Source of the DNA: Photorhabdus laumondii subsp. laumondii
GTDB lineage: Bacteria; Pseudomonadota; Gammaproteobacteria; Enterobacterales; Enterobacteriaceae
Assembly: GCF_003343245.1 (NCBI RefSeq)
Contig: NZ_CP024901.1
Coordinates: forward strand, 4,278,001-4,342,000
Direction: 5' to 3'
Length of the DNA stretch: 64,000 nt
The position numbers and the translations under genes are program-made. The notes beneath the pieces were generated by a model. It was given only the letters and a program-made list of their open reading frames with translations, was not told the origin of the DNA and searched no databases. Shown piece after piece: positions 48,859-51,492 of the stretch; the first letter of the stretch is position 1, and each line of letters opens with the position of its first letter.

Positions 48859-49098
48859 ATGAGTTATGATATAGATAATTCAATTTTAACTTCTAATGTT
48901 TGATGGGGTCTGATTTGTCGCTTGCAGGATTAGATAAAACCCAGTGGTTACTTGCTGCTAATAAATTGGGTTTAAAGGCTATGGGTTTAAAGACTATGGG
49001 TTCAAAGACTATGTGTTTAAAGACTATGTGTTTAAAGACTAAAAGTCTCAAAAAAGATTTTTTCCGCCTGCCTTATGCAGGGCTGTCTGGAATACAGA
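48859..49098 (+). pseudogene. remnant of a HlyB-type secretion ATPase (N-terminal C39-like domain)
   Basis: An ATG at 48859 with AAGG upstream starts MSYDIDNSILTSNV, then stops. The next frame reads SLAGLDKTQWLLAANKLGLKA...KKDFFRLPYAGL, which matches the N-terminal peptidase-like domain of HlyB-family ABC transporters ([20 protein letters not shown]...FISLPAL in E. coli HlyB). A frameshift or small deletion separates the two parts, a 15-bp repeat has expanded inside, and the frame runs into an ERIC. The membrane and ATPase domains are gone. Confidence 0.6.
48968..49042 (+). repeat. 15-bp tandem repeat, five units
   Basis: Five head-to-tail units of 15 bases, variants of GGGTTTAAAGACTAT, start at 48968, 48983, 48998, 49013 and 49028. 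In the hlyB-remnant frame each unit codes for five residues (GLKTM, CLKTM and similar). There are no spacers, so it is not a CRISPR. Confidence 0.9.
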
Positions 49099-49229: not shown

Positions 49230-49512
49230 ACATTTCATTTCGTGCCAAGGAAACCAAGTTGTGTCCCTCAATTCAATAATCGTCCTAAGAAATATAAACG
49301 GATACAACCTAATTTATTCGACTATCATTCAGTTAGATAAAAATCATCTGACTGTTAATGGTGAACAAATGATGCTAGTTGCCAATATTAACATAAAGGT
49401 AGAAACAAAAACTGACCGACTGAAAATTATTGACTATGGGCTCAGCCCGTTAAAAACCAAAACCGAAGAAAGCCTTTTAGGAACGATAATGACTTCTCAA
49501 TTCATTTTTTAA
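49230..49512 (+). pseudogene. remnant of a HlyD-type membrane fusion protein (C-terminus)
   Basis: The frame ending at a TAA at 49510 reads NLIYSTIIQLDKNHLTVNG, then INIKVETKTDRLKIIDYGLSPLKTKTEESL. This is the C-terminal signature of HlyD (GLVFNVIISIEENCLSTGN..., AEIKTGMRSVISYLLSPLEESVTESL in E. coli). Only the last approximately 80 codons remain; the N-terminal membrane anchor and coiled coil are missing. With the hlyB remnant it shows that a type I secretion operon once stood here. Confidence 0.75.
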
Positions 49513-49590
49513 AACAAAAAGAACCAATTTAGTAACACTTTATCTGAAAGATAAGAATTATTTTTTAAATCAATGAGGAAGAAACCACAT

Positions 49591-50856
49591 ATGCCTGATG
49601 AAACGCTACAACAACCTAAACATAAAACAATAGGAATATTTGAAAACTATCAAGAAATTATGCCCGACGATAAACTTTCATACTTTGAAAACACACCGTC
49701 TATAACCTTGCATGTAGCCCCCCAAGGTGCTCCTATAGCAGGAGAAAATGGAATCAATATAGGTAAATCACTTACGGGTCATGTTTTCTATACCATCAGA
49801 AATAACAACCCCAAAACTGGTAATTTTGAGTCCATTACCGCAGGATTAAGTCCGGGGGAAGATTGGGGTACCGTTAAAGACAATTTGTCGTTTAATGACC
49901 ATATACGCTACCCTACGGCCTCATCACTAACAATGGTATCCCAAAACCTTCAATTCTTGATGGACCTTGATATGGTTTTTCAGAAAACTATTGATTACCG
50001 GGATGGAAAAACGCAACCACCATCCTATAATTTATTAACAAATAACTGTATTGATTTTGTAAAAGAGACGTTTCACAGAAAGGGAGGACATGCTGGTTAC
50101 TCTGGCATTACTCTAAACTTAGAGAAGACTCCTAATCAAGTACTCAATCAAATTTTCCCAAACCCGAAAAAAGTTACGAAAACTTACATAACACCATTAG
50201 TAATTGATTTAAATGGCGATGGCGTTCAAACAGTAACCAGTGAATTAGGAGTAATATTTGATTTTGACGGTCAAGGGCAGAAAGTCAATACAGGTTGGAT
50301 CGATGCAAATGATAGCCTATTAGTCTGGGATAAAAACAATGACGGATTAATCAATAATGGCACCGAATTGTTTGGGGAAAATTCCCAACTGTCATCTGGA
50401 GTAAAAGCACAACATGGTTTTATGGCTTTAGCTGATATAGACAGCAATCAGGACGGTATTATTGATAACCAAGATGTAACTTGGAACACATTAAAAATCT
50501 GGCAGGATAGGAATTTAGACGGACTCAGTACCCCAGATGAACTTAACAGCCTTGAAGAAACCGATATTAAATCTATTCAACTAAACTATCAGGAGAGCGA
50601 TTATTTTGACCTACAAGGTAATTACCACGGACTGACATCTACCGTCAACTGGTCAAATGGATATCAGACAGAGATCACGGATGTCTGGTTTAAACAGGAG
50701 CCAATATCTATACACGAAGCTGAACTAAGTAACGAATTACATAATCTAATTAATGCGATGGCCTGCTTTGTCAGCCAGCAAACAGCAGAAATTAACAACA
50801 CTATCTCTGTCGGGATAACACCAATTCAACTTCTTACCGTCAACTCGATAGGATAA
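49591..50856 (+). CDS. probable type I-secreted protein: papain-like domain plus FrpC-like calcium-binding region
   Basis: 421 residues. The ATG at 49591 is preferred over the one at 49573 because GAGGAAG lies nine bases before it. Residues about 30-180 contain GHVFYTI (His64) and NLLTNNCIDFV (Cys153), in the His-then-Cys order of permuted papain-like (PPPDE/NlpC-like) hydrolases; this is a pattern call. Residues about 203-370 match the calcium-binding region of FrpC/RTX proteins: DLNGDGVQT, GWIDANDSLLVWDKNNDGLINNGTELFGE (repeated Asp/Asn-Gly loops), DIDSNQDGIIDNQD and WQDRNLDGLSTPDEL. No signal peptide; the C-terminus (LHNLINAMACF...) resembles tails of type I substrates. Its former hlyB/hlyD lie just upstream. 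Role unknown. Confidence 0.7.
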   Translation: MPDETLQQPKHKTIGIFENYQEIMPDDKLSYFENTPSITLHVAPQGAPIAGENGINIGKSLTGHVFYTIRNNNPKTGNFESITAGLSPGEDWGTVKDNLSFNDHIRYPTASSLTMVSQNLQFLMDLDMVFQKTIDYRDGKTQPPSYNLLTNNCIDFVKETFHRKGGHAGYSGITLNLEKTPNQVLNQIFPNPKKVTKTYITPLVIDLNGDGVQTVTSELGVIFDFDGQGQKVNTGWIDANDSLLVWDKNNDGLINNGTELFGENSQLSSGVKAQHGFMALADIDSNQDGIIDNQDVTWNTLKIWQDRNLDGLSTPDELNSLEETDIKSIQLNYQESDYFDLQGNYHGLTSTVNWSNGYQTEITDVWFKQEPISIHEAELSNELHNLINAMACFVSQQTAEINNTISVGITPIQLLTVNSIG

Positions 50857-50865
50857 ACTAGTAGA

Positions 50866-51492
50866 ATGAAATATATACTTTTGCTGATAATCGTATTATT
50901 TACCAATGCATGTGCAGAACCGACGAAAACAAATATTCCTAGAACTGTATTTGATGGAATTAAATATACAGGTATGGTTAAGGAACTGCCACTGAAAGTA
51001 CCGAGAACAGTTGAAGAGTTTCGGGAACTGGAAAAACAAGCTCAGAATGGTAGCTCTAATGCCTATTTTTTATTAGGAAAACTTTATACCGACAGTTCAT
51101 TAAAGAAATCAGAAAGAGATTACCAAAAAGCCATCGAGTATTATAGCAAGGCATTAAAGTTAGATAAAAACCATGCGGAATCTTTATATAATCTCGGTAT
51201 AATTTATAGTTTTGGTTATGGAGTACAAGAAGATCAAATAAAAGCCAATGATCTACTTCAAAGAGCTGGAGATTCTGGCATAATAAATGGGTATCAGATA
51301 ATAGGGGTGAATTATTTACATGGTTTAGGGAATAGCCCACAGGATTTAGAAAAGGCATTTCATTATATTAAAATAAATGCTGAAAAGGGCATCGTGGAAA
51401 AAGAAATATCTCAAGAAATAATAAATCATTGGGATAATTTTTTAATTCTCATGGGATATAAACCCATCCCATTAGTAGGAAAAAGTAACTAA
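50866..51492 (+). CDS. Sel1-repeat lipoprotein
   Basis: 208 residues with a lipoprotein signal MKYILLLIIVLFTNACA (lipobox TNAC, Cys16) and Sel1/TPR-type helical repeats from about 50 to 175 (NAYFLLGKLYTDSS, KAIEYYSKALKLDKNHAESLYNLGIIYSFGYGVQED, NGYQIIGVNYLHGLG). The gene starts nine bases after the secreted-protein gene, so the two are almost certainly co-transcribed. Sel1-repeat lipoproteins often act as envelope adaptors or as immunity proteins next to toxin genes; a protective role here is a guess from position. A hairpin follows the stop codon. Confidence 0.8.
   Translation: MKYILLLIIVLFTNACAEPTKTNIPRTVFDGIKYTGMVKELPLKVPRTVEEFRELEKQAQNGSSNAYFLLGKLYTDSSLKKSERDYQKAIEYYSKALKLDKNHAESLYNLGIIYSFGYGVQEDQIKANDLLQRAGDSGIINGYQIIGVNYLHGLGNSPQDLEKAFHYIKINAEKGIVEKEISQEIINHWDNFLILMGYKPIPLVGKSN

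Follow-up and report, generated by a model that had tools for sequence, protein, structure and literature searches.

Smlt3024 of Stenotrophomonas maltophilia, an effector (X-Tfe) of a type IV secretion system (T4SS) of the X-T4SS kind, is reported to be homologous to the N-termini of RTX proteins and to be toxic in the periplasm of E. coli, not in its cytoplasm; it is neutralised by Smlt3025, a protein with the FrpD fold (PMC6759196). The words papain, NlpC and catalytic are absent from the main text of this 2019 study, which appears to give no enzymatic mechanism for the N-terminal domain. Here we compare with this and related systems a two-gene unit of the insect-associated bacterium Photorhabdus laumondii subsp. 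laumondii, located in a 64,000-nucleotide stretch that we call the window (positions 4278001-4342000 of a 5.69 Mb one-contig genome). The unit encodes a candidate effector (open reading frame 1, ORF1), made up of an N-terminal domain (NTD), a degenerate FrpC-type self-processing module (SPM) and a C-terminal tail, and an exported Sel1-repeat protein (ORF2).

FrpC binds the outer-membrane lipoprotein FrpD of its own operon (PMC7078468, PMC5233953), and the 2019 authors recast this couple as effector and immunity protein (PMC6759196). The SPM of FrpC is described as having four EF-hand-like calcium sites, a scissile Asp414-Pro415 bond and, as a fifth, a transient site that involves D478 and D579 (PMC7078468). 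In permuted NlpC/P60 enzymes the His precedes the Cys and a Tyr is conserved, as in PPPDE1 with His38, Tyr101 and Cys108 (PMC3142127). Tox-Act1, a permuted NlpC/P60 effector of a type VI secretion system (T6SS), is reported to be a phospholipase with periplasmic action and a membrane-associated immunity protein (PMC12994826). Sel1-repeat proteins are reported as immunity proteins of T6SS toxins, namely Tli5b of PldB (cited in PMC13133936) and Sel1E of VgrG4 (PMC7108748). An earlier note on this DNA, made from the sequence alone, knew of no described system with the exact combination found here; Smlt3024/Smlt3025 and the Sel1 immunity proteins are precedents for the kind. What appears to be new is the compact NTD+SPM/Sel1 pair, of which no description was found in titles and abstract openings among the open-access matches listed, while a toxic T4SS effector with an FrpD-like immunity protein has been known since 2019.

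The candidate enzyme domain and the FrpC-like module

The two genes and the elements of ORF1 are the following.

49591..50856, + strand: ORF1, candidate effector of 421 aa (NTD, degenerate FrpC-type SPM, C-terminal tail)
50866..51492, + strand: ORF2, exported Sel1-repeat protein of 208 aa, candidate immunity protein
49699..50085, + strand: NTD, residues 37-165, candidate permuted papain-like (NlpC/P60) enzyme
49780..49782, + strand: H64 codon, invariant in 79/79 non-redundant full-length NTDs
50026..50028, + strand: Y146 codon, Tyr at Cys-7 in 77/79 NTDs
50047..50049, + strand: C153 codon, invariant in 79/79 NTDs
50191..50196, + strand: Thr201-Pro202, at the position of the FrpC scissile bond Asp414-Pro415 (PMC7078468)
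50194..50700, + strand: SPM-like calcium-binding module, residues 202-370, with four EF-hand-like sites kept (read by eye)
50701..50853, + strand: C-terminal tail of ORF1, residues 371-421, putative type I secretion signal

The nine-base spacing, H64 and C153 are exactly where the earlier note had placed them. A further in-frame ATG of ORF1 is found at 49573, and the AGGAAG at 49576-49581 suits the ATG at 49591.

The NTD was characterized with an alignment of 79 sequences, picked from 160 domains with good profile coverage at an 88% similarity cut, truncated copies being excluded. S60, G63, H64, G85 and C153 (window numbering) are invariant throughout. The order of His and Cys is that of permuted NlpC/P60 enzymes, and the spacing of the Tyr seven residues before the Cys equals that of Tyr101 and Cys108 in PPPDE1, which suggests that it is the active-site Tyr; no column of this alignment could be assigned to a third polar residue of a catalytic triad. 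A Pfam scan of the 79 NTDs at E up to 1 returned 32 families, many by chance, among which Peptidase_C97 (19 NTDs, best E 2e-5), RTE1 (15), LRAT (13) and Lnb_N (8) were the commonest; the TseH profile matched 2/79. These five families belong to one superfamily. In the NTD of locus L042 (L, G, f and g denote loci, genomes, families and genera of the surveys) the Peptidase_C97 match covers both the His and the Cys region, with E 3.5e-5 and 24.1 bits against a curated cut-off of 29.2. A search with the NTD profile found no solved relative, its sole row being azurin at E 1.5. The NTD thus shares the permuted His...Cys order with Tox-Act1 and TseH and differs from them in that these are delivered by a T6SS and that the profile similarity is weak (Lnb_N/DUF4105 in 8/79, TseH in 2/79). 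The permuted order that the earlier note had read from a single protein holds across the alignment, and the sequence evidence for a permuted-papain assignment is good, not decisive, which makes the papain-like fold a candidate for this domain.

Residues 202-364 of ORF1 match the SPM of FrpC (PDB 6sjw, E 9.3e-36) and not the RTX nonapeptide repeats, as no RTX family matched ORF1. In the alignment to 6sjw, read by eye, the four EF-hand-like sites are conserved with D421 replaced by Asn, and D579 is kept, while D478 is replaced by Glu and Asp414 by Thr201. ORF1 thus has neither the Asp-Pro scissile bond nor the complete fifth calcium site of the module. The replacement of the scissile Asp is shared by all compact forms examined: in short NTD+SPM proteins the residue before the scissile-site Pro is Thr in 19/23 and Ser in 4/23, with Asp in 0/23, as opposed to Asp in 20/21 and Ser in 1/21 of the long, RTX-type NTD+SPM proteins. 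The 17 SPM frames that lack an NTD match comprise 9 with Asp, 7 with Ser and a single Thr, which belongs to a short form split by a stop. These counts refer to distinct SPM sequences and use the best SPM match per frame at E 1e-8; they leave out the late-starting matches of L015, L021, L034, L018 and L120, as well as L098, L109 and L143, which did not pass the threshold. The published mechanism requires an Asp side chain at this position, so that neither clipping nor linking is expected of the short forms, and the SPM of ORF1 is probably cleavage-dead. The calcium-binding region of the earlier note therefore stands as FrpC-like, with the change that it would no longer process itself. In a Morganella form (L034) the first half of the SPM is gone and the Sel1 pairing is retained; L015, for which an alignment was made, is similar. 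Taken together, the unit resembles FrpC/FrpD (PMC7078468) in the SPM with its four calcium sites and in having an exported partner, and differs from it in the two replaced acidic residues, the lack of RTX repeats and partner proteins that are unrelated by family.

The Sel1 partner and the persistence of the pair

ORF2 contains three Sel1 stretches (E 1.4e-17), and 28 distinct Sel1 partners generally begin with a hydrophobic export signal. The earlier note had called ORF2 a Sel1 lipoprotein. The repeats bear this out, and the lipid anchor does not fare as well: the FTNAC motif, in which positions -3 and -2 are T and N, falls outside our own strict lipobox pattern, which matches 5/28 distinct partners and misses 23/28. 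It is thus doubtful that ORF2 is a lipoprotein, and it is probably periplasmic. In its repeats and its position next to a candidate effector, ORF2 agrees with the Sel1 immunity proteins, whose protective role it may share. It is like Tli5b and Sel1E in being a Sel1-repeat protein tied to a probable toxin, and unlike them in that theirs are T6SS toxins from other families; Sel1E, for its part, is reported without a predicted lipoprotein signal. A chance adjacency of the Sel1 gene was considered and rejected: when the own genome was searched with the Sel1 model at E 1e-3, the Sel1 gene of the window alone passed, under the curated cut-off, in a search so insensitive that it missed the Sel1 partner of the paralogue described below.

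The compact form is almost always accompanied by a Sel1 gene. Among 26 distinct NTD+SPM forms of less than 500 aa, 24 adjoin one in the same orientation, which lies downstream in 20 and upstream in 4; the two without are L143, a 204-aa piece resembling part of a giant, and L109, whose 314 aa include an SPM rump. The NTD sequence was used to tell these forms apart. L096 and L033, whose NTDs are incomplete, and L036, whose Sel1 gene is truncated, are counted among them; the split-frame loci L018 (no Sel1 match) and L064/L115 (intact Sel1) are not. A Sel1 neighbour is found in 0/21 long NTD+SPM frames within the flanks examined; most loci were available with about 1.5 kb of flank, such that Sel1 genes downstream of giants, and linkage to type I secretion systems (T1SS), are under-sampled, and both flanks of NTD+SPM giants were read for L073 and L083 only. 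The survey of neighbours that the earlier note had proposed thus supports it for the short form, while the NTD often occurs without Sel1 in giant RTX-type, T4SS and T6SS forms. The own genome holds a second complete pair (L002), in which a 385-aa effector overlaps a 193-aa Sel1 protein by 4 bases, and also a giant of 2123 aa in which the NTD and SPM are accompanied by RTX-type repeats and a subtilisin-like region, the latter two recognized by eye. Because the paralogue and many relatives retain both domains and the neighbour gene, the two-gene unit is not a product of chance.

In genome surveys, which count the own genome where it belongs, the whole ORF1 sequence found matches in 16/198 genomes of the family, mostly through the SPM alone. 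With the NTD profile, matches were obtained in 7/394 genomes of the order, 9/12 of the genus and 5/369 of the class; in 16/30 genomes of the genus of G160, which is Xenorhabdus since the NTD is identical to that of L039; and in 13/149 genomes of the family of G848, 12/121 of the family of G371 and 45/91 of the genus of G848. A set of named genomes yielded 16 loci, including near-identical ones in Photorhabdus species. Pairs are also present in Morganella, Proteus and genomes of family f9, which by inference is Pasteurellaceae-like.

The two genes decay unequally. With ORF2 as query, 12 Photorhabdus genomes yielded 11 Sel1 places, located in 5 of them; the adjoining effector is intact at 7/11 and broken or gone at 4/11, where the Sel1 gene is intact. 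The effector of L112 has lost the first half of the NTD including the His, that of L115 contains a stop, that of L120 is reduced to the protein start and the SPM tail, and L113 has none; the Sel1 gene of L113 shows dN/dS of 0.26-0.32 versus the others. In Xenorhabdus L096 the NTD is interrupted and Sel1 intact. The reverse is rarer, with L109 lacking Sel1 and both genes truncated near transposase-like genes in L036/L054. Although the numbers are small, such an asymmetry would be expected of toxin and immunity genes. ORF1 itself is intact in the window and in L031 and L032. Of three effector comparisons, two give dN/dS values of 0.31 and 0.34, and the remaining value (1.60) depends on one synonymous change. 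In a tree of few columns and unknown root, 18 short-form NTDs lie on one side of a branch with support 100/99; here L109 is counted in the Sel1-short group and the group X_T4SS is a taxonomic one that does not depend on XVIPCD. For 15 of the 24 Sel1-paired forms, the distances among NTDs and those among Sel1 proteins correlate with r 0.83 (Mantel p 1e-4).

Two other origins were considered and rejected. ORF1 matched no PADLOC model, and ORF2 gave just a weak PADLOC match to PtuA (E 0.012), which speaks against a known anti-phage defence. ORF1 also matched no NCBIfam family. A phage-protein origin was discarded because the PHROGs match of ORF1 is limited to the SPM-like region and the best match of ORF2 is to Sel1 repeats.

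Secretion genes beside the pair and the domain on other machines

ORF1 has no N-terminal hydrophobic stretch and, as the earlier note stated, no signal peptide. Its assignment as a type I substrate gains support from the surroundings of its relatives, and the C-terminal tail is suggestive of a type I signal. T1SS genes or their remnants, named at relatives by eye and by tblastn among the loci, stand beside at least 8 of 24 distinct pairs. In Xenorhabdus L041 an HlyB-type transporter and an HlyD-type protein are followed by a Sel1 lipoprotein and the effector; L038 keeps this arrangement, its transporter genes being broken into several frames, and in L097 the order is HlyD, Sel1, effector. L039 carries serralysin (prtA), its inhibitor (inh), the effector, Sel1, PrtD, PrtE and PrtF. 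The count also includes L036 (disrupted), L094, and L031/L032 with HlyD remnants. Two elements upstream of ORF1 belong to this picture.

49303..49479, + strand: remnant of an HlyD-type T1SS protein, C-terminal end (TIGR01843 E 2.9e-4, below cut-off; tblastn E 1e-10)
48912..48980, + strand: possible N-terminal remnant of an HlyB-type transporter, weak (tblastn E 0.003-0.004)

The tblastn value of the HlyD tail was obtained with the genome's own HlyD, and that of L038 gave 2e-10. Together with the weak HlyB-like start, this tail indicates that the pair of the window probably once stood behind a T1SS operon that has since decayed. Elsewhere in the genome there are four HlyD-type proteins above the curated cut-off, one of which precedes the giant.

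Some further observations were made at these loci. Short in-frame repeat units of GLKTM type occupy 48969-49043 of the window, within the possible HlyB remnant. Ahead of the effector of L039, a piece of about 38 codons (2083-2196) has 79% protein identity to the inside of the downstream PrtD and may have been left behind when the pair inserted into the prt operon. A similar piece is present in L094. In family f9, L148 (249-3343) and L149 (713-3349) encode a protein of 428-433 aa with a weak NTD match, together with small lipoproteins (a tandem pair in L148) and the beginning of a transporter of T1SS type, possibly another T1SS form with a different partner.

The NTD is not confined to T1SS-linked proteins. 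XVIPCD is present on 13/15 scanned NTD proteins of family f39 (2/2, 5/5 and 6/8 in three batches), which by inference is Xanthomonadaceae, with genus g410 Stenotrophomonas-like, and most of the XVIPCD-NTD genes whose surroundings were read adjoin a lipoprotein-like gene. This fusion is the point of likeness to Smlt3024/Smlt3025; the differences are delivery by a T4SS through XVIPCD, for which ORF1 has no match (PF20410), and a partner with FrpD fold instead of Sel1. In L180, L183 and other f39 loci several NTD genes, the majority of them carrying XVIPCD, cluster at one site with divergent lipoprotein-like partners, likely as an array of effector-immunity pairs. At L079, L100, L101, L104 and L105 the NTD lies beside VgrG-like or VgrG-/PAAR-like genes and a membrane-anchored protein, as judged by eye. 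In family f9 a 228-aa NTD-only protein (L027/L080, 5529-6215) is found between two SPM-containing frames, showing that the NTD can be encoded separately from the SPM.

The giants have partners of yet another kind. In L073 (2185-6165; own genome about 730.2-734.2 kb) the region between the HlyD gene and the giant encodes a tandem array of seven paralogous lipoproteins, each of about 173 aa, and the one scanned is DUF5625 (E 1.9e-49). Pseudomonas cichorii L044 has two such lipoprotein genes before its giant, of which the one scanned is also DUF5625. Tandem partner copies are typical of immunity genes. Several copies are mentioned as well in PMC13133936. A single family for all partners is unsupported: of 15 hhalign comparisons just that of DUF5625 with the T4SS partners was notable, a partial match with a probability of 67%. 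A profile of DUF5625 proteins and one T4SS partner matched the uncharacterised structure 3nkg (1.6e-5), and no mention of DUF5625 was found in the open-access literature searched.

Proposed function of the pair

We favour, with moderate confidence, that ORF1 and ORF2 are an antibacterial T1SS effector and its periplasmic Sel1 immunity protein. A T1SS would export ORF1 with no periplasmic intermediate, and calcium binding by the SPM-type module would let the protein fold outside the cell; the NTD would then attack the envelope of a neighbouring bacterium as a Cys/His hydrolase. Its likeliest target would be an acyl bond of a lipid or lipoprotein, since several studied permuted NlpC/P60 enzymes, T6SS toxins among them, act on such bonds. 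The SPM, devoid of its clip-and-link Asp, would probably serve as a secretion, folding or presentation module. The enzyme would be bound by ORF2 after export of the latter to the periplasm, which would shield the producer and its kin. The exporter at present, if any, would be one of the genome's other T1SSs. The effector-immunity layout put forward in the earlier note is thus the best reading of the data; its observation is confirmed and its interpretation partly supported.

Several points weigh against this assignment. No Sel1 gene accompanies the full NTD of L109, and in L018 NTD and SPM are in separate frames with no Sel1 match. Three of the four Photorhabdus places with a broken effector belong to one genome, G574, and co-divergence of NTD and Sel1 is also expected of any genes inherited together. 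The Pfam matches of the NTD are all under the curated cut-offs where these are shown. The NTD of ORF1 is a candidate for the Smlt3024 domain, and four partners of XVIPCD-NTD proteins, two of them incomplete, had no match to the Smlt3025 structure 6PDK. With the adjoining T1SS reduced to a remnant, export of ORF1 in this strain is uncertain, and a T1SS product would still have to find a way into another cell's periplasm.

Three other explanations would account for parts of these data. The binding of FrpC, the source of the SPM, to the lipoprotein FrpD (PMC7078468, PMC5233953) and the lipobox of five of the 28 Sel1 partners would fit a surface pair in which ORF2 is an outer-membrane docking receptor for ORF1 and the purpose is adhesion, not killing. 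We consider this unlikely, as 23 of the partners fall outside the lipobox pattern, the cleavage-and-linkage Asp is missing from all 23 short forms examined, and the NTD is common to XVIPCD proteins and VgrG neighbours; FrpC/FrpD itself is reinterpreted as effector and immunity protein by the 2019 authors (PMC6759196). An enzyme secreted against insect or nematode tissue, with ORF2 as an accessory factor, would suit the reported secretion of virulence proteins by a Photorhabdus T1SS (PMC6023292) and the pair located in a serralysin-type operon, with genes named by eye. Such an enzyme would not need an exported cognate partner that outlives it; the pairs extend to Morganella, Proteus and family f9, and the same domain is found on XVIPCD proteins, the mark of a bacteria-directed T4SS, so that we give a host-directed role little weight.

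It is likewise rather improbable that the pair is a relic, with an effector no longer deployed after its T1SS was reduced to remnants and both genes kept mainly for the immunity value of ORF2. The HlyD and possible HlyB remnants and the related Photorhabdus genomes with a broken or lost effector beside an intact Sel1 gene are consistent with this. Opposed to it are the intact ORF1 here and in L031 and L032, the low effector dN/dS in two of the three comparisons (the 1.60 of the third reflecting a single synonymous change) and the four other HlyD-type proteins encoded in the genome.

A broader and more tentative picture, which we hold to be possible, is that of one Cys/His envelope toxin domain fitted to T1SS, X-T4SS and T6SS. 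In the compact T1SS form the SPM would have lost self-cleavage and become a calcium-triggered delivery module, and Sel1 would take the immunity role that FrpD-like or DUF5625 lipoproteins have elsewhere; by extension, large FrpC-type RTX proteins with the NTD might be antibacterial acyl hydrolases. FrpC-type RTX proteins still lack a settled role, and the pair offers a small and testable version of them: a candidate enzyme of 421 aa, for which a Cys/His/Tyr site can be named, and a candidate antidote of 208 aa. The two-protein system of Caulobacter is reportedly a bacteriocin-like T1SS weapon. If our proposal is true, bacteria-killing T1SS weapons would extend past such bacteriocin-like proteins.

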